A stretch of DNA of 64,000 bases from Microcella alkalica (GTDB taxonomy: Bacteria > Actinomycetota > Actinomycetes > Actinomycetales > Microbacteriaceae): assembly GCF_014137945.1 (NCBI RefSeq), contig NZ_JACGWX010000002.1:1-64000 (forward strand). Reading direction: 5' to 3'. Position numbers and translations under genes: made by a program. The notes under the pieces were generated by a model. It was not told the origin of the DNA. It worked only from the letters and a program-made list of their open reading frames with translations, and searched no databases. Every line of letters begins with the position of its first letter. The stretch's first letter is position 1. Below are positions 24,234 through 34,358 of the stretch, piece after piece.

Positions 24234-25241
24234 ATGACCGACTCATCCTCCGGCGCCCCCGACGCCTCGAGCCCCCTCGACCCCGTCCCCGCGGCCGCCG
24301 TGCGCCGGCGCCGCGGCGCTGCCGCGCGCGCCGACGTCGAGGCGCGCATCCATGACGTCGAGAGCGCGCTGATGGACCTCGAGGCGCGGGCGCGCGAGAT
24401 GGATGCCCGCATCGAGGCGCGCGCCGGCCGCAACCTGCCCAAGGCCATCTTCTTCGGTCTCATCCTCGGCCTGTCGCTGCTCTTCAGCCTGATCGTGGTG
24501 AAAGAGCTGTTCATGCTCTTCGGTGCGGCGCTCATGGTCTTCACCGTCTATGAGCTCGCGAGCGCACTGCGGTTCGCGGGCCGCGACATCCCGCGCATCC
24601 CTCTCGTCATCGCGTCGCTCGCGGTCGTCCCCTCGGCGTTCTACCTCGGCGCCGAGGGCCTGTGGTGGTCGTTCCTCGCAGGCCTCGCGTTCGTGAGCCT
24701 GTGGCGGATCGCCGAGTCGGCGAGACCCTCGATGCGCGGGCCGGGCGTCTCGCTGCCGACCGACCTCGGGGCGGGCGTGTTCGTGCTCGCGTACGTCGCA
24801 CTGCTCGGCGGCTTCTCGATCGTCATGACGGCAGAGGAGGGCGGCCAGTGGTGGACGCTCGCCTACCTCATCATTGTGATCTCGATCGACACGGGCGCGT
24901 ACGCATCCGGGCTCGCGTTTGGCAAGCACCCGATGGCGCCGCGCATCAGCCCGAAGAAGACGTGGGAGGGCTTCGCCGGCTCCGTCGTCGCCGCGATCAC
25001 CGCGGGCATCCTGCTGGCCCTCCTCATGCTCGGCGAGGTGTGGTGGGTCGGGCTCGTCCTGGGTCTTGCGCTCGTGGGAACGGCCACGCTCGGCGACCTG
25101 ACCGAGTCGCTCATCAAGCGAGACCTCGGCATCAAGGACATCTCGACCTGGCTCCCCGGGCACGGCGGCTTCCTCGACCGGCTCGACTCGATCCTCCCGT
25201 CGACGATCGTCGCCTACGTGCTCTTCACCCTGCTGGGGTGA
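24234..25241 (+). CDS. cdsA: phosphatidate cytidylyltransferase
   Basis: A 335-aa membrane enzyme that makes CDP-diacylglycerol from CTP and phosphatidate. The N-terminal 65 residues are cytoplasmic and coiled-coil-like (RADVEARIHDVESALMDLEARAREMDARI). About eight helices follow. The family signature is GDLTESLIKRDLGIKD ... LPGHGGFLDRLDS near the end, with its conserved acidic residues. ATG begins directly after the frr stop. The N-terminal coil is an extension absent from E. coli CdsA. Confidence 0.94.
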   Translation: MTDSSSGAPDASSPLDPVPAAAVRRRRGAAARADVEARIHDVESALMDLEARAREMDARIEARAGRNLPKAIFFGLILGLSLLFSLIVVKELFMLFGAALMVFTVYELASALRFAGRDIPRIPLVIASLAVVPSAFYLGAEGLWWSFLAGLAFVSLWRIAESARPSMRGPGVSLPTDLGAGVFVLAYVALLGGFSIVMTAEEGGQWWTLAYLIIVISIDTGAYASGLAFGKHPMAPRISPKKTWEGFAGSVVAAITAGILLALLMLGEVWWVGLVLGLALVGTATLGDLTESLIKRDLGIKDISTWLPGHGGFLDRLDSILPSTIVAYVLFTLLG

Positions 25242-25264
25242 TGAGCGCGGTCCCCACTCTCGGG

Positions 25265-25270
25265 CAGAAT
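25265..25270 (+). promoter_or_regulatory. -10 box of the DivIVA-domain gene (leaderless layout)
   Basis: CAGAAT plus 6 nt (GGTCGA) plus GTG 25277. This supports the internal GTG over ATG 25241, which overlaps the cdsA stop by 1 nt. Confidence 0.35.
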
Positions 25271-25276
25271 GGTCGA

Positions 25277-25825
25277 GTGACCTCGACGTTCCCGCTCGCG
25301 CGCAAGGGCAAGCCGGGCTACGACGTCGACGAGGTCGAGTCCTTCCTGGCGGATGCCAGGCGCGCGTACTCCGCGATCGACGGAGGCGGCCTCTCGAGCG
25401 ACGCCATCCGGCACACCGCGTTCCGCGTCGTCCGCCGCGGCGGCTACTCGGTGCGGCACGTGGATGCCGCTCTCGAGCGGCTCGAGGAGGCCTTCGCCGC
25501 GCGCGAGCGCGACCGCGCGGTCGCCGAGCGCGGCGAGGAGGCGTTCTACGCCGAGATCCGTCAGACCGCCCAGGAGCTCGTCGACCGGTTCGCTCGACCG
25601 CCCGGCCAGCGCTTCCGCCGCGCGAGCGCGCTCGCGCGCGGCTACCACCCCGCGGACGTCGATGCCTTCGCCGATCGGATCGCGGGGTACTTCCAGAACG
25701 ATGACCCCCTCTCCGTCGACGCGGTGCGCACGATCGCCTTCCGGAGCCGCTTCGGAGGGTACGACGAGACGCAGGTCGATGTCGTCCTGGACGCGGTCGT
25801 CCGGGTCATGCTGGCTGTTCGCTGA
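25277..25825 (+). CDS. DivIVA-domain protein
   Basis: About 182 aa (194 if ATG 25241 is used). The segment RKGKPGYDVDEVESFLADARRAY matches the DivIVA/GpsB N-terminal membrane-targeting motif, and the pattern recurs (FRRASALARGYHPADVDAFADRIAGYF), giving two or three DivIVA-like modules. These proteins sense membrane curvature at poles or septa. The role here is unassigned. The start is ambiguous: the -10 spacing favours GTG 25277, whereas operon overlap favours ATG 25241. Confidence 0.8.
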   Translation: MTSTFPLARKGKPGYDVDEVESFLADARRAYSAIDGGGLSSDAIRHTAFRVVRRGGYSVRHVDAALERLEEAFAARERDRAVAERGEEAFYAEIRQTAQELVDRFARPPGQRFRRASALARGYHPADVDAFADRIAGYFQNDDPLSVDAVRTIAFRSRFGGYDETQVDVVLDAVVRVMLAVR

Positions 25826-27687: not shown

Positions 27688-27700
27688 AGGGGTATCCCCT
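27688..27700. terminator. short palindrome between convergent genes
   Basis: AGGGG-TAT-CCCCT overlaps the stop codon of the reverse AI-2E gene. A second hairpin, GCCGC/GCGGC, lies at 27664-27675. Either could help end both transcripts, but both are short. Confidence 0.3.
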
Positions 27701-28760
27701 ACAGGCGCTCCTGCCTGGGCACGACCACCTGGTCGATGATGATGAGGATGGACGCCGCCACGGGGATGGCGATGAGTGCGCCCAGGACGCCCAGGAGGGT
27801 CCCGCCGATGAGCGCGGCGATCACCACGACCGAGCCGGGGACCTTCACGGCGCGGTTCATGATGTTCGGGCTCAGCAGGTATGCCTCGACCTGCATGTAG
27901 ATGAGGTAGTAGATGCCCACCGTGACGACGGTGGATATCGACTCGGGGTTCGTGATGAACTGCGTGAATACGATGAGCACCGAGCCGGAGAGCGTGCCGA
28001 CGAGCGGCACGAGCGAGAAGAGGAAAGCCACGAAGGCGAACAGCGCCGGGTACTCGGCGCCGATGAACGACAGGAACAGGAAGCTCAGGACGCCGTTCAC
28101 GAGCGCGAGGCTCGCCTGGCCCACGACGAAGCGACCGACGGCGGAGGCGACCTGCTCGGCGATGCCGACGAAGGTCGTGCGGCGCGACGCCGGCACGAGG
28201 CGGTAGAGCGCGCTCTTCATGCTCGAGAGCGACGCGACGAAGTAGAGGGTCAGGATGAGGATGATGAGGCCGCCGAACACGCCGGAGGCGACCGCGATGC
28301 CGACGCCGAGCACTCCGCCGCCGATCTCGGCGAGATTCGCCGGATCCTGGAGGAAGGTGATCGCGCCGTCGACGGCCTGCTGGACGTCGAGGACCTCCAC
28401 CGGCACGAAGGTCTGGGCCGTCGCCACGAGCTCCTCGAGCGACTCCACGGATCCCAGGAAGTCAGCGATCTGCTTCACGAGGCGACTGACCTGCTCGACG
28501 ATGACGGGGACGATCGCGAAGATCAGACCGGTGAAGAGCCCCAGCACGCCCACGAGCACCGTGAGGATGGCGGCCCATCTCGGCCACTTGCGGTCCTCGA
28601 GCCACGAGACGATCGGGTCGAGACCCAGCGCGATGAACAGCGCGGCGCCGATGTAGGTGATGATCGTCGCAAGAGAGCTGATCGCGCCGCCGATGAGCAG
28701 AGCGACGAGAACGCCGAGTCCGCCGAAGAGCCCGAACCGGAACGCGTTCTGGATCCTCAT
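27699..28760 (-). CDS. AI-2E family (PF01594-type) transporter
   Basis: A 353-aa protein with about eight membrane helices. The segment LGLDPIVSWLEDRKWPRWAAI, the long extracytoplasmic loop with VSRLVKQIADFLGSVESLEEL, the later LVPLVGTLSGSVLIVF and VVVIAALIGGTLLGVLGALIAIPVAA identify the AI-2E/TqsA/YdiK family. Members have been linked to export of the quorum signal AI-2, but many transport other solutes or protons. ATG 28760 follows AGAGAGG. The coiled-coil gene lies upstream on the same strand; the stop of that gene is 73 bp away. Confidence 0.87.
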   Translation of the reverse strand: MRIQNAFRFGLFGGLGVLVALLIGGAISSLATIITYIGAALFIALGLDPIVSWLEDRKWPRWAAILTVLVGVLGLFTGLIFAIVPVIVEQVSRLVKQIADFLGSVESLEELVATAQTFVPVEVLDVQQAVDGAITFLQDPANLAEIGGGVLGVGIAVASGVFGGLIILILTLYFVASLSSMKSALYRLVPASRRTTFVGIAEQVASAVGRFVVGQASLALVNGVLSFLFLSFIGAEYPALFAFVAFLFSLVPLVGTLSGSVLIVFTQFITNPESISTVVTVGIYYLIYMQVEAYLLSPNIMNRAVKVPGSVVVIAALIGGTLLGVLGALIAIPVAASILIIIDQVVVPRQERL

Positions 28761-28833: not shown

Positions 28834-31290
28834 TCACTCGTCGCTGATCGAGCCCGAGATCTTCTCTGCCTGCGACAGTACCCCGCGCAGGCCCTCGAGG
28901 TAGCCAGCCACGGCGTCGCGCTCGACGCGGAGCCGCGCCAGGCGCTCCTCCGCCTCCGACACGAGCGCTGCGGTGCGCTCCTCCGCGTCGGCGACGAGCG
29001 CGGCCGCACGTTGCTCGGCGTTCTCCAGCACGGCGCGGGCGGTGGCATCGGCCTCGCTGCGCAGGCTCTCGGTCTCGGCGCGCGCCGCGCGCGTCAGCTC
29101 CTCCGTCACCGCGCGGGCCTCGGCGGCCGCCTGCTGCGCGGCGGTGAGCTGCGCAGTGGCCTCGTCGAGGTACTTCTGCGTCTGCGCACTCGCCTCCTGC
29201 TGCCGGGCGAGGTACTCGCGCTCGGCCTCATCCCGCCGCGCCGCGAGCTCGACATCGAGATCGATGCGCGCCTGCTCGGCCGCGCGCGCGAGCTCGGCCC
29301 GCTGCTCCTCGATCTCGCGGGCAAGCGTGGCACGTGACTGCGCGGCCTCGTCGGCGAGGGCGCGCTCCTGATCGGATGACGCACGGGCGAGCGCGGCCCG
29401 GCGCGCCTTCTCGTCGGCCTCCAGAGCCGCGGTGCGGGTCGCAAGGTCGCGCTCGACGGACTCCAGTGCCGTGGTCTGCTCGCGCTCCGCGGTCGCGTGC
29501 CGCTCGGACAGCTCGGCATCGAGAGACGCGCGGGCGCTCGTCGTCTCGCGCTCGAGCTCCTCGCGGGCCGCTGCGAGCTCGAGCGCCAGGTCGTTGCGCG
29601 CGGCGGTGAGCTCGCGCGCGAGGTCGGCGCGCGTCGCCGCGGCCTCGCGCTGCAGCTCGGCGCGCGCGGTCGTCGTCTCGCGCTCGAGGTCGGCCGCTGC
29701 CATGCTGAGCCGAGCCTGGAGGGCCGCCTGCTTCTCGGCGATCGCCGCGTCGCCGCTCGCCCGCTGCTCGGCCGCGTGCGCCTCGGCGGCAGCACGAGCA
29801 TCCGCCGCGTACGCATCCACCTCGGCGCGCGTGTCGAACGCGTAGGCGTCGGCGCTCGCCCTCAGCTCGAGCGCCGCGGCCTCGGCGGCGCGCTGCAGCT
29901 CCTCGGCGGCGGCGGCGGCCTCGGCCCGCAGATCGGCGGCGTAGGCGTCGGCGGCCTGCCGCACCTCGGCGGCTGCGGCGACAGCAGCGGCGCGTGTCTC
30001 GGCGGCGTAGGCATCAGCCGCCTGCCGCACCTCCTGGACATACGACTCAGCGCCTTCGCGCGCAGTCGCGGCGTCGGATTCGGCGGCCTGGCGCAGCTCG
30101 CCTGCTCGCGCCTCAGCGTCCGCGCGCACGCTCGTGCCGTGCGCGTCGGCAGCGCTGCGGGTGTCGAAGGAGTACGCGTCGGCGGCCGTGCGCGTCTGCT
30201 CTGCGTAGGCGTCGGTCTCCGCTCTCACCTGCTCGGCGTAGGCTTCGGCGTCTCCCCTGGCCTGATCGGCGTAGCGGTCGGCGTCGCCGCGGACCTCCTG
30301 CACGTAGCGGTCGGCCTCCCCGCGGGCCGCATCGATCTCCCTGTGGAGCTCGGCCCGAGCGGTCGAGAGCTCGGCGTCGAGCGAGGCGCGGGTGCGCTCC
30401 TGCAGCTCCGCGATCTCGCGGCGCGTGCGCTCCTCGAGCGTCGCGACCTCGTCGCGGCGGCGCGCCTCCTCGGCATCCCATTCGGCGCGCTCGCGCTCGA
30501 GATCGCTCATCACGGCCGCGCGCGCGGTCGAGAGCTCGTGGTCGAGCTCGGCGCGACCCGCCTCGATGTCGGCCTCGAGCTGCGCGCGGCGCGTGCCGCT
30601 CTCGCTCTCGAATCGAGCGCGCTCCTCCGCCGTCTCCCGGGCGAGCGCACCGGCCGACGCGCGGGCGTCGGCGACTTCGCGGTCGGCGACCACGCGCAGC
30701 TCGGCGACGTCGCGCTCGGCCTCGGCACGAATGGCGCCGGACTCCCGCTTGGCCATCGAGCGGGTCTCCGCCGCCTCGGTCGCGACGGCGCCCCGGATGG
30801 TCGCGGCCTCTCTCGTCGCCTCCTGCACGAGCTGGTCGGCGTCGTCGCGGGCTCGTTCGAGGAGCTCCTCGGCCTCGCGGGCGGCGTTCTCGCTCGTCGC
30901 GGCGGCGCGCTGCGAGGCCTCGGCGACCATGCGCTCTATGCGCTCCGCGGCCTCGGTCTGCAAGCGATCGACGTCGGACTGGGCGGACGTGCGGACGCGC
31001 TCGGCGTCGATGTCCGCCTGGCTGATGAGGCGCGTCGACTGCTCCTCCGCGAGGCGCAGCGTCTGCTCGAGCTTCGTGCCCAGTCCCGCGTAGGTGGGGC
31101 GGCCGACCTCGTCGAGCTCGGCCTGGAGGTCGTCCACGACCGCCTGGAGACGCTTGAGCTCTTTCGCAGTCTCCGCCCGGTCGGCGTTCGCCTTGATGAC
31201 GTGCCGGCGGAGCTCCTGGATCGCCTTGTCGACCTCGTCGCGCTTGTAGCCGCGCATCTCGGTCCCGAAGTCGCTGTCGATCGCTGCCAC
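28834..31290 (-). CDS. DivIVA-like protein with a long hendecad coiled coil
   Basis: An 818-aa protein. The N-terminus (IDSDFGTEMRGYKRDEVDKAI) matches the DivIVA-type targeting segment, followed by a short heptad coil (about 35-62). From about residue 92 to 809 the sequence is built from 11-residue units without a break (see the repeat entry), rich in Ala, Arg, Glu, Asp. It should form a rod of about 100 nm if fully helical. By family it most resembles the actinobacterial polarity/cytoskeleton coils (Scy, FilP, DivIVA partners). The GTG start 31290 follows GGGAGACCACAC. The neighbouring DivIVA-domain gene at 25.3 kb may be functionally linked; this is inference. Confidence 0.85.
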   Translation of the reverse strand: MAAIDSDFGTEMRGYKRDEVDKAIQELRRHVIKANADRAETAKELKRLQAVVDDLQAELDEVGRPTYAGLGTKLEQTLRLAEEQSTRLISQADIDAERVRTSAQSDVDRLQTEAAERIERMVAEASQRAAATSENAAREAEELLERARDDADQLVQEATREAATIRGAVATEAAETRSMAKRESGAIRAEAERDVAELRVVADREVADARASAGALARETAEERARFESESGTRRAQLEADIEAGRAELDHELSTARAAVMSDLERERAEWDAEEARRRDEVATLEERTRREIAELQERTRASLDAELSTARAELHREIDAARGEADRYVQEVRGDADRYADQARGDAEAYAEQVRAETDAYAEQTRTAADAYSFDTRSAADAHGTSVRADAEARAGELRQAAESDAATAREGAESYVQEVRQAADAYAAETRAAAVAAAAEVRQAADAYAADLRAEAAAAAEELQRAAEAAALELRASADAYAFDTRAEVDAYAADARAAAEAHAAEQRASGDAAIAEKQAALQARLSMAAADLERETTTARAELQREAAATRADLARELTAARNDLALELAAAREELERETTSARASLDAELSERHATAEREQTTALESVERDLATRTAALEADEKARRAALARASSDQERALADEAAQSRATLAREIEEQRAELARAAEQARIDLDVELAARRDEAEREYLARQQEASAQTQKYLDEATAQLTAAQQAAAEARAVTEELTRAARAETESLRSEADATARAVLENAEQRAAALVADAEERTAALVSEAEERLARLRVERDAVAGYLEGLRGVLSQAEKISGSISDE
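28864..31017 (-). repeat. about 65 uninterrupted 11-residue (hendecad) coding repeats
   Basis: Read in steps of 33 nt, the protein from about residue 92 to 809 keeps one register. Residues 326-523 (29722-30315) form 18 near-identical units of the type ADAYAxxxRxx, for example ADAYAAETRAA. Residues 524-700 form LxxELxxARxx units such as LARELTAARND, with hydrophobic residues at positions 1, 5 and 8 of each unit (a, e and h of a hendecad). Hendecads give nearly straight coiled coils rather than the left-handed twist of heptads. Confidence 0.85.
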
Positions 31291-31332: not shown

Positions 31333-31554
31333 ATCGGCGCGCGAGACCGCGCCTCCTGCGCGGCGGCTGAGCGCGAATCGGCGAGTGAGAGCGATTCCGG
31401 TAAGCTGGAACGTCTTTGTTCTGCTGGCCGGAGATCTCGAACCCCGAGCCTCCGTCCGAGATCCGTTGCTTGAGGGCGCGTGACCGCCGCCCGTAGCGGA
31501 TGGTCGGGACGCGCGTACCCAAGCACGCCGGGCCAGCATGAGAGGAGTGAACCC

Positions 31555-33435
31555 GTGCGATTCATCATCGCGATCGTTCTGTTCGTCGTCGCCTTCGCGG
31601 GCATAGGACTGGGCATCGCCGAGCGCACCGTCTTCGCCGAGGCGGATCGAGTGACCGAGTCGGTCTCGCTCGACTCGACCGCGCCGGTGACCGTCATCGA
31701 CGGCTCGGCGCTCAACGCCTTCGACGGGCGGCAGACGCTCGCCATCCTCGGCGGCGTCGAGGCGGGCGTCGGCTCAGTGCCGGTTCCGACTCCGAGCGGC
31801 TCGCCCGCCACGCCGGCGAGCCCGTCGCCCGCCGCGTCGGAGGATGCTGCCGGCGCTTCCGCCACCGAATCCGACGCGATCGCCGCCGTCTACGGCACGA
31901 CGACGGATGTCCTGGGCTGGGTGGGGGAGTCCTCGCACACGCTCGTCACCTGGGACGCGGAATCGCAGTCGCTCGTCGCGGAGGAGGTCGTCGGCACCGA
32001 ATCGACCGTGCCCAGTCCGATCGGCAGCGACCTCTGGTACGGCGAGTTCGAGGGCTCGGGCGAGCTGGGGCTCACCGTCAACGTGCCCCGCACCGTCTCG
32101 CTCCTCATGGTCTCCGACGGCACCCTCCCCGCGCCGCAGGAGTTCTCCATCACGTGGCCTCTCGACGTCTCGTCCCCGATCGCGACGCCGCTCACCCTCG
32201 CGGGCTTCGCGGCACTGCTTCTCGGCCTTCTCGCGCTCATCTGGGCGCTCATGCACATGCGCAAGCAGCGCGGGCCCCGACGCAAGTCCCCGAAGGGTCC
32301 GAAGATGCCGCGCGTGCCCAAGCCTTCGCGCTACCGCCCGGTCAAGAAGAGCACGCTCATCGGGCGGCCCAAGGGCCGACGCGCCGTCCGACGCATCGCG
32401 CTGCTCCCCGGCATGCTCGCGGCAGCGCTGCTGCTCAGCGCGTGCGGGATCGGAGAGGGCATGAGCATCTCGGAGCCCACAGAGGCTGCGACTGCCTCGT
32501 CGTCCGCCGAGCCCGAGGAGGAGCTCCCGCCCGTCGCGGTGACCGCTCGGCAGGCCGAGCGCATCCTCGGCCGACTCTCGGCGACGGTCGCCGAGGCGGA
32601 TGAGGCGGCGAACGGCGACCTCGCCTCCGCTCGGCTCGCGGGGCCCGCTCTCGCGCTGCGACAGGCCAACTACGCGGCTCGCGCCACCGACGGGGAGGTC
32701 GGCGCCCTGCTGCCGATCCCCACCGGCTCCGTGGACCTCGTGCTGCCGCAGCAGACCGACATCTGGCCGCGGCAGGTGTTCGCGATCGTCTCCGACCCGG
32801 AGGACGAGACGGTGCCGCCGCTCGCGATCGTGCTGACGCAGGCGACCGCGCGGGATCAGTATCGCGCGACCCACCTGATCACCCTCGAGCCGCAGGCCGC
32901 GCTCCCCGAGGTGCCGCCGGCATCCCTCGGAACGGCGTTCCTCGGAGCGGACACGCCGTTCCTGCCGGTGCAGCCGGCGACGGTCGTTCAGTCGTACGCC
33001 GAGGTGCTCCTCCTCGGCGAGGCGGGTGCGGAGGGCTTCTCGCTCTTCCAGGCCGAGGGCGACAGCCTCCGATCGCAGATCGGGTTCGAGAAGAAAGAGG
33101 AGCGCCGCGCCGCGATCCCCTCCACGGCGGCGATCGACTTCACGAACGAGTTCGGAGACTCCGACGTGATCACGATGAGCACGCTCGACGCCGGCGCGCT
33201 CGTGATCGGCTATCTCACCGAGACCGAGACGGTCACGCCGACCCAGTCGGGGGCCACGGTGAACGCGAGCGGCACGGTCGCGGCTCTCGCGGGCGTGGAG
33301 TCGAGCGAGCGCGGCATCACCGCGACCTACGGCGTGCAGGTGCTCTTCTACGTGCCGTCGCTCGAGAACCCCGATGACCCCGTCGTCCTGCTCGGCTACA
33401 CGCAGGGGCTCATCGCCGCTTCGGAGGTGCAGTGA
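31555..33435 (+). CDS. membrane protein with an internal lipoprotein signal
   Basis: A 626-aa protein of unknown family. Membrane segments: about 3-22, 211-234 and 281-297. A Ser/Pro/Ala linker (about 75-105) and an external domain lie between the first two. Between the second and third is a very basic cytoplasmic stretch (KQRGPRRKSPKGPKMPR and onward). The third segment reads LLPGMLAAALLLSACG, a classic signal peptide ending in the lipobox LSAC at Cys297. The C-terminal half (about 300-626) looks like an ordinary secreted lipoprotein domain. The GTG start follows AGAGGAG. The next gene overlaps its stop by 1 nt. Confidence 0.72.
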   Translation: MRFIIAIVLFVVAFAGIGLGIAERTVFAEADRVTESVSLDSTAPVTVIDGSALNAFDGRQTLAILGGVEAGVGSVPVPTPSGSPATPASPSPAASEDAAGASATESDAIAAVYGTTTDVLGWVGESSHTLVTWDAESQSLVAEEVVGTESTVPSPIGSDLWYGEFEGSGELGLTVNVPRTVSLLMVSDGTLPAPQEFSITWPLDVSSPIATPLTLAGFAALLLGLLALIWALMHMRKQRGPRRKSPKGPKMPRVPKPSRYRPVKKSTLIGRPKGRRAVRRIALLPGMLAAALLLSACGIGEGMSISEPTEAATASSSAEPEEELPPVAVTARQAERILGRLSATVAEADEAANGDLASARLAGPALALRQANYAARATDGEVGALLPIPTGSVDLVLPQQTDIWPRQVFAIVSDPEDETVPPLAIVLTQATARDQYRATHLITLEPQAALPEVPPASLGTAFLGADTPFLPVQPATVVQSYAEVLLLGEAGAEGFSLFQAEGDSLRSQIGFEKKEERRAAIPSTAAIDFTNEFGDSDVITMSTLDAGALVIGYLTETETVTPTQSGATVNASGTVAALAGVESSERGITATYGVQVLFYVPSLENPDDPVVLLGYTQGLIAASEVQ

Positions 33436-34358
33436 TGGAACCGTTCAACCCGTCCGCGATGCGCGGCGCCGTCGACCTGTCGGGTCTCGTCAGCCGTGCG
33501 AGCGCCCCGGAGGCCGCGCCCGGCCGTCCGGCGCCTGCTTCGACCGGTGCGAGTGCGCGAGCGGAGGGCATCGTGCGCGAGGCCGACGACGCGTCCTTCG
33601 GCGACGTGCTCGAGCTCTCCCAGCGCGTGCCCGTCATCGTCGAGTTCTACGCGAGCAGCATCGAGCCGGCGCTCGAGTCGATCGTCGCGACCTACGGCGG
33701 CCGGATCGCTCTCGTCACCGTCGACGGGGATCGCTCTCCGCAGCTCGCCCAGGCGTTCCAGGTGCAGCAGGTTCCCGCCGTCGCTGCGGTCATCGGCGGC
33801 CGGCGGTTCCAGTTGTTCGTCGGGATGCCCGCGGAGATCGAGGTGCGGCAGGTGCTCGACCAGGTGCTCGAGCTCGCGCACCAGCAGGGCGTCACGGGAG
33901 TCCTGGAGCAGGGCGAGGCGCCCACCGAGCCCGCCGAGGAGCCTCTGCCGCCGCTGCATCAGGAGGCCTACGATGCGATCGCCCGCGGCGACTACGCGGC
34001 CGCGGCATCCGCCTATCGCAGCGCGATCGCGCAGAGCCCGCGCGATCAGGAGGCCGTCGCGGGCCTCGCGCAGGTGAACCTCCTGCTGCGCCTCGAGGGT
34101 GCGGTCGCCTCCGAGATCCGCGCGGCCGCCGCGGCGAACCCGGACGATGCGGATGCCCAGCTCGCGGTCGCCGACCTCGACCTCAGCGGGGGGCACGTGG
34201 ATGACGCGTTCGTGCGACTGCTCGACGTGTTCCCCGCGCTCGATGCGGACGGCCGCACGGCAATCCGCACGCGGCTCCTCGACTACTTCGAGATCGTCGG
34301 CGCCGATGACCCGCGCACGATCGCGGCCCGTCGGCGCCTCACCGCGCTGCTGTACTGA
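33435..34358 (+). CDS. thioredoxin-fold/TPR protein (YbbN/CnoX-like), cysteine-less
   Basis: A 307-aa protein: an N-terminal Ala/Pro stretch, a thioredoxin fold (about 48-150), and C-terminal TPR-like helices (about 170-300, QEAYDAIARGDYAAAASAYRSAI). Where thioredoxin has WCGPC it reads YASSIEP (about 72-78), so there is no redox motif at all. FQVQQVPAVAAVIGGRR keeps the conserved cis-Pro region. It resembles the holdase co-chaperone CnoX, which lost the CXXC in E. coli too. A chaperone-like role is an inference. The ATG overlaps the preceding stop, so translation is coupled. Confidence 0.85.
   Translation: MEPFNPSAMRGAVDLSGLVSRASAPEAAPGRPAPASTGASARAEGIVREADDASFGDVLELSQRVPVIVEFYASSIEPALESIVATYGGRIALVTVDGDRSPQLAQAFQVQQVPAVAAVIGGRRFQLFVGMPAEIEVRQVLDQVLELAHQQGVTGVLEQGEAPTEPAEEPLPPLHQEAYDAIARGDYAAAASAYRSAIAQSPRDQEAVAGLAQVNLLLRLEGAVASEIRAAAAANPDDADAQLAVADLDLSGGHVDDAFVRLLDVFPALDADGRTAIRTRLLDYFEIVGADDPRTIAARRRLTALLY

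Follow-up and report, generated by a model that had tools for sequence, protein, structure and literature searches.

A long hendecad rod protein of the FilP type in Microcella alkalica, and a family in which rod length appears to change mostly by 11 residues

The closest described relatives of the protein discussed here are the actinobacterial coiled-coil proteins FilP and Scy and the wider DivIVA-like superfamily. Two conserved N-terminal motifs define the FilP family, whatever the lengths of the segments, and the three members tested all formed filaments in vitro (PMC2680258). FilP rods, predicted to be 40 nm long, measure 37 nm, and the striation is near 60 nm (PMC6599971). In their treatment of the DivIVA-like superfamily, Martinez-Goikoetxea and Lupas describe the FilP and Scy architecture as a DivIVA-like head on a hendecad rod, of fewer than 200 to more than 1000 residues and with Micrococcales included, place Scy in the Streptomycetales only, and set out the coiled-coil periodicities behind the hendecad argument used below (PMC9858780). 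The 64,000 nucleotides of Microcella alkalica analysed here (positions 1 to 64,000 of contig NZ_JACGWX010000002.1, assembly GCF_014137945.1; the window) encode a protein with such a head and rod, and since this architecture is already described, the window protein is a long version of it. It shares with Streptomyces FilP (PMC2680258, PMC6599971) the two N-terminal motifs, a hendecad-rich rod and an end-of-rod motif.

The 818-codon open reading frame reported in an earlier note on this DNA was borne out, and it lies on the minus strand, which that note had not given (Table 1). Its GTG start is conserved in all 23 same-genus copies examined, the window copy included. AlphaFold2, run on the single sequence, predicts helix almost throughout, interrupted by short breaks, at low confidence (mean pLDDT 65, pTM 0.29). 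The gene is under purifying selection: between G000 and G002, the two nearest 818-residue copies, Ka/Ks is 0.15–0.18 in the rod, beside the head value listed in Table 1, and rod segments give 0.03–0.48 across eight pairs. Pfam returns DivIVA together with sub-threshold apolipoprotein and fumarase-C matches and nothing else. The apolipoprotein match (61.8 bits, cut-off 90) was dismissed as a reflection of the 11-residue helix periodicity that apolipoproteins also have. By this search the protein is a coiled-coil rod lacking other known functional domains, as the FilP family is characterized (PMC2680258). A phage origin was rejected as well, with no PHROGs match at 1e-3.

Table 1. Features of the rod-protein gene and its neighbours (window coordinates; residues numbered from the GTG start)
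Feature	Position	Strand	Remarks
AI-2E family transporter gene	27699..28760	-	73 bp downstream, same strand; common neighbour in relatives
Putative FilP-family rod protein, CDS	28834..31290	-	818 aa; GTG start at 31290, stop at 28834-28836
Short tail, residues 810-818	28837..28863	-	Same-genus tail lengths 6, 7 or 9
C-terminal end-of-rod motif LRVERDAVAGYLEGLRGVLSQAE, residues 787-809	28864..28932	-	Family-wide; motif score 51.9
Distal rod, residues 561-786	28933..29610	-	Gap-free in same-genus protein alignments
Variable hendecad array with ADAYA units, residues ~295-560	29611..30408	-	11- or 33-residue gains or losses between species
Proximal rod, residues 66-294	30409..31095	-	Gap-free in same-genus protein alignments (18 pairs; gap places in repeats approximate)
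Second family motif PTYAGLG, residues 65-71	31078..31098	-	Rod start, by alignment with relatives; includes the sole proline of the protein (residue 65)
DivIVA-like head and short coiled coil, residues 1-61	31108..31290	-	Pfam DivIVA match close to the cut-off; Ka/Ks 0.04 (residues 2-90; G000/G002)
First family motif RGYKRDEVD, residues 13-21	31228..31254	-	K where the consensus of PMC9858780 has D
Divergent neighbour, 651-aa ORF	31480..33435	+	No Pfam match at 0.01; common neighbour in relatives
YbbN-type thioredoxin/TPR gene	33432..34358	+	Common neighbour in relatives

The two head motifs, RGYKRDEVD and PTYAGLG, align with FilP and with FilP-like rows from seven other families of the order, and the tyrosine of the second lies 54 residues past RGY. 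Pfam DivIVA matches the head at E 9.9e-6 and 26 bits in the protein search and at 29.6 bits in a whole-genome search, the cut-off being 28. The earlier view that the union of a DivIVA-type head with a hendecad rod stands out does not hold as such, this combination having been described already (PMC9858780). The first motif departs from the strict pattern GY[DN]xx[QE]V[DN] of that paper in having lysine at the first D/N position, a difference from FilP as well; K16 is invariant in the 16 same-genus rows aligned, and elsewhere in the Microbacteriaceae the position holds K, R or S in some rows and a pattern-fitting N in others. The search pattern of PMC9858780 would have missed the window protein. 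Head bit scores in a four-sequence comparison are 37 for FilP, 16 for Scy and 8 for the DivIVA of the same genome, the FilP and Scy sequences being from genomes taken as Streptomyces because of their Scy content; by this measure the protein is nearer FilP than Scy or its own DivIVA. The earlier note, in placing it among the coiled-coil cytoskeletal proteins of the actinobacterial FilP/Scy group, was right in kind, both landmarks and the period of 11 being present.

Several other assignments were considered. DivIVA/Wag31 likewise has a DivIVA-like head, and DivIVA is encoded by a separate gene in the same genome; the rod protein scores 21.1 bits with the DivIVA/Wag31 model NF050102 against a cut-off of 260. 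PolyDIV proteins have 2 to 8 DivIVA-like domains per chain, and a single motif was found on reading the rod protein. Comparison of the head with solved structures gave 15 sequences at E ≤ 1 and no decisive match among them (a designed barrel at 0.0017, keratins at 0.0096 and 0.014, GpsB at 0.12–0.29). The spacing between RGY and YxGLG in heads of the family is often 47 or 54 and once 61, corresponding to heptad steps in the head coil, and distances of 40, 48–53, 55, 60, 62–64 and 68 also occur.

Orthology with Scy, the long scaffold which organises the growing tip and whose null phenotype is tip multiplication, has to be weighed. At 818 residues the window protein falls between FilP (310) and Scy (~1290), and Scy also has a very long hendecad rod with length varying by 11. 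The match to the Scy model (NCBIfam NF041483) is weak (E 2.1e-4), at 19 bits against a cut-off of 1040. At 1e-20 the model has no match in the window's own genome; it finds 15 of 197 class genomes, all of one genus among the 91 genera sampled, and none of nine in the window's family. PTYAGLG is absent from the four Scy copies read, in Scy the interval from RGY to the end motif exceeds 1200 residues, and the Scy head begins at RGY (PMC9858780). Together with the better head score for FilP given above, this makes a Scy orthologue very improbable.

The rod itself has a clear period. At lag 11 the residue identity reaches 0.348, compared with 0.146 ± 0.012 in 500 shuffles (shuffle maximum 0.182), with further clear peaks at lags 22, 33 and 44; the autocorrelation proposed earlier as a choice between 11 and 7 thus came out for 11, and a heptad coil was rejected with lag 7 at the background level of 0.135. 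A 51-residue repeat was reportedly described for Scy and FilP by Walshaw in 2010; as the main period here it was rejected (lag 51, 0.177; z 0.66 among lags). The long array, put at about 65 hendecads in the earlier note, can be written as 66 consecutive 11-residue lines from residue 88 to 813. Its register, described as perfect, is so in sequence identity and length, but not in the hydrophobic core, where the best register shifts along the rod: by sliding phase it is 7, then 3/10, 6, 10/3, 6 and 2, and finally 4 at the end, and the core register is weak in the alanine-rich middle. The core phase declines from about 3.1 to 1.6 residues along the rod, and FilP has a similar total drift over about a quarter of the landmark distance. 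Because of this drift the coil would be nearly rather than perfectly straight. The 18 ADAYAxxxRxx units are also less alike than the 'nearly identical' once claimed, with a mean pairwise identity of 0.40 and exact ADAYA occurring three times. A rod of roughly 100 nm had been estimated, and at a helix rise of 0.1485 nm per residue the 720 residues between landmarks give 107 nm; the corresponding FilP rod is 196 residues, or ~29 nm. Within the ADAYA array (29740–30300, residues 331–517) the tyrosine is core-facing, at position d in register 6 in 9 of 17 units, and a core-facing tyrosine between alanines seems unusual for a hendecad coil.

Rod lengths were compared within the genus using 25 genomes, of which 23 have the head and 22 a complete copy (there is no match in G012 or G016, and G024 is cut by a contig end). 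Between RGY and the tail motif GVLSxAE the 22 complete copies show 11 distinct distances, from 493 to 834 residues, every one of which leaves a remainder of 9 on division by 11. Protein alignments have gaps in nine of 18 same-genus pairs, and in eight of the nine every gap is 11 or 33 residues and lies approximately within residues 295–560. The exception is G000/G010, with scattered gaps of 17, 16, 6 and 5 residues; gapped alignment of rather different long rods scatters gaps, and landmark distances were used for this pair for that reason. At the DNA level gaps are clean 33-bp multiples in G000/G020 and G011/G023, and are partly split or compensated in other pairs.

A rival explanation would be purely mutational, with a 33-bp array that recombines, a length that is neutral and a coiled-coil register that is irrelevant. 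The DNA does have a detectable, weak 33-bp periodicity (at 29611–29694, 29904–29980, 30172–30250 and 30388–30451), but its units are degenerate, with 71–80% matches and 1.9–2.5 copies per detected array. The indels sit in the most repetitive part of the gene, and close species differ widely in length with no obvious trend; yet Ka/Ks of this variable middle is 0.18 for G000/G002 and 0.08–0.48 across eight pairs (the maximum being G017/G013). In-frame differences of other sizes do occur in the tail, where 6, 7 or 9 residues follow the end motif in 4, 11 and 7 of the 22 copies respectively, yet such differences have left no net trace across rods of 493–834 residues in any of the 22.

For the comparison across the family, YxGLG and the end-of-rod motif served as landmarks. 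Motif scores are 29–62 in a set of 96 non-duplicate proteins, and the top score among shuffled proteins (one shuffle for every third protein) is -8.3. The first 80 named loci are the best matches to the window's head and so an uneven sample, and the set omits G025/L044 (no rod), L077, L095, L101 and L120 (no YxGLG), four Scy rows and ten duplicates. The distances leave remainders modulo 11 of 9 (63 proteins), 5 (28, all Microbacteriaceae), 2 (three), 8 (one) and 0 (one). FilP is in the commonest class, 9, and the window protein in class 5, a shift of 7 or -4 from it. L071 and G033 deviate by amounts beyond any single heptad or stutter. A tree built from the head and end segments calls for a minimum of 32 distance changes and for five changes modulo 11, compared with 23–30 for moduli 5–10 and 12–18. 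Three loci from two other genera of the window's family (L157–L159) have a distance of 441, remainder 1, a further shift of 7 (or -4) from 5.

A broader set of 135 rows adds 39 of 60 class-wide loci, hand-chosen to cover most genera with a head match, and in it end-motif scores go as low as 0.3. The 21 loci dropped were four duplicates, one incomplete copy and 16 with weak landmarks; these 16, left uncounted, comprise four with remainder 9 and 12 with others (6, 10, 2 and 7), many of the 12 being short and paralogue-like, and the landmarks there may be non-homologous. The 135 remainders are 9 (97 rows), 5 (28), 2 (three), 1 (three) and one each of 8, 0, 6 and 10. The tree, a quick one with many weak forks, requires at least 38 length changes and seven changes modulo 11, with 26–36 for the control moduli. 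In one reconstruction 27 of the 38 steps are multiples of 11, seven are shifts of 7 or 4 and four are others (2, 8, 1 and 10), two of these four falling in short paralogue-like rows. At a chance of 1/11 per step the probability of at least 27 of 38 is 3e-20, for steps that are not fully independent on an uncertain quick tree. Scy behaves similarly from RGY to its end motif: 12 loci were tried, eight could be measured (L138, L141 and L144 were missed by the search pattern, and L142 is without the end motif), and seven of the eight leave a remainder of 6 (1227, 1238, 1249 and 1315), the eighth (1311) being off by 4. These sequence comparisons suggest that evolution changes rod length mostly by whole 11-residue units, with the packing face kept aligned. 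They also bear on the mutational explanation. Among the 11 steps that involve something other than whole hendecads, 7 amount to a shift of 7 or 4; such shifts are tolerated by a coiled coil and would not be expected to be favoured by a 33-bp engine. When remainders are reconstructed instead, such shifts make up 3 of 7 changes and other amounts the remaining four. A purely mutational origin for the rule seems unlikely, although it may be partly mutational, units that repeat each 33 bp recombining in 33-bp steps, and we infer that selection, rather than mutation alone, is the cause.

The reading we prefer, and consider probable, is that the window protein is a filament-forming scaffold rod of the FilP family whose length evolves mainly in hendecad steps with the register kept. 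Its dimeric state, filament formation and polar location we infer by analogy with its relatives. Two chains would pair through the DivIVA-like head and form a parallel coiled coil, rich in alanine and largely hendecad, that extends ~107 nm to the conserved end-of-rod motif; end-to-end and lateral association of the rods would then build filaments close to where the wall grows. A hendecad is 3+4+4 and would give a nearly straight coil; with 11 residues more the core face would stay where it is, with 7 more or 4 fewer it would move by one third of a residue, and with most other numbers it would rotate away. Length changes would survive mainly as whole hendecads (1.63 nm each), since the proximal and distal parts are conserved and the coil core between them has to remain in phase, with rarer survivors differing by 7 or 4 modulo 11 (a heptad or a stutter) and others seldom. 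New lengths would arise when the mid-rod region gains or loses 33-bp units, and we propose the weak 33-bp DNA periodicity as the raw material.

A rod of the same family might instead act as a spacer, for example one that separates the DivIVA layer at the pole from chromosome or cell-wall factors, and form no filaments of its own. Coiled coils often serve as spacers (PMC5082667), and the extreme length and alanine-rich coil of the window protein would suit such a role. A spacer is expected to be of constant length, yet the rods span 493–834 residues within one genus, and the filaments formed by the tested family members (PMC2680258) also speak against it; we regard this role as rather improbable. 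For the filament-forming scaffold, the 37-nm FilP rods with their ~60-nm striation lead to the prediction that a 107-nm rod would give a much longer striation. A possible but doubtful extension is that FilP and Scy rods are rulers of adjustable length, in which whole hendecads set the filament period or reach and heptad-sized shifts are the main other step, so that most lengths are a constant + 11n + 7m, with length selected for cell width, the wall growth zone or partner spacing.

For FilP and Scy no hendecad length rule was found in the literature searched; key hendecad and Scy papers outside the scope of that search may contain it. The abstract of a hendecad survey in J Struct Biol in 2023 reportedly tells of continuous amplification of hendecads, and the rule would seem reasonable to a coiled-coil specialist. 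It is not mentioned in the available portion of PMC9858780. Coiled-coil rods are usually conserved in length, with 3.6-fold lower length variation than other regions (PMC5082667); this family in contrast spans 196–764 residues between landmarks in well-supported rows, mostly in hendecad steps. It thus puts the coiled-coil register rule to a natural test, and its natural variants offer a direct way to test how filament spacing relates to rod length in an intermediate-filament-like protein of bacteria.

The own genome contains one match to the whole rod protein, and the head profile at 1e-8 matches in 108 of 197 class genomes. The work places a FilP-type gene in the Microbacteriaceae, the family in which Scy was found in none of the nine sampled genomes. 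In another genus of this family all five sampled genomes (G143, G175, G185, G204 and G223) are without a FilP-family head at 1e-8, possibly because the gene was lost there. In most Microbacteriaceae loci a hydrolase, the AI-2E transporter, the 651-residue reading frame, the YbbN-type gene, GlgB and GlgE are near the rod gene, within the reach of each stretch; the exceptions are GlgB, not found in L065 and L066, and YbbN, not found in L074. Beyond this family the hydrolase and transporter are near the gene in Actinomadura relatives, and the 651-residue reading frame and YbbN in Ruania and several Actinomyces. None of these neighbours is present at 1e-8 in 25 of 115 loci, including nearly all Jiangellaceae and all five FilP/Scy stretches (17 kb each), in which none of ten window neighbours was found at that threshold. 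We note that a PolyDIV-type protein of 195 residues, of the type described in PMC9858780, is encoded 3 kb from the FilP-type gene (25238–25825, plus strand). It has four GYxxxxV motifs (at residues 27, 69, 135 and 174) and a Pfam DivIVA match at 5.4e-10, and its gene immediately follows cdsA and frr, with an amino-acid-kinase-family gene upstream.
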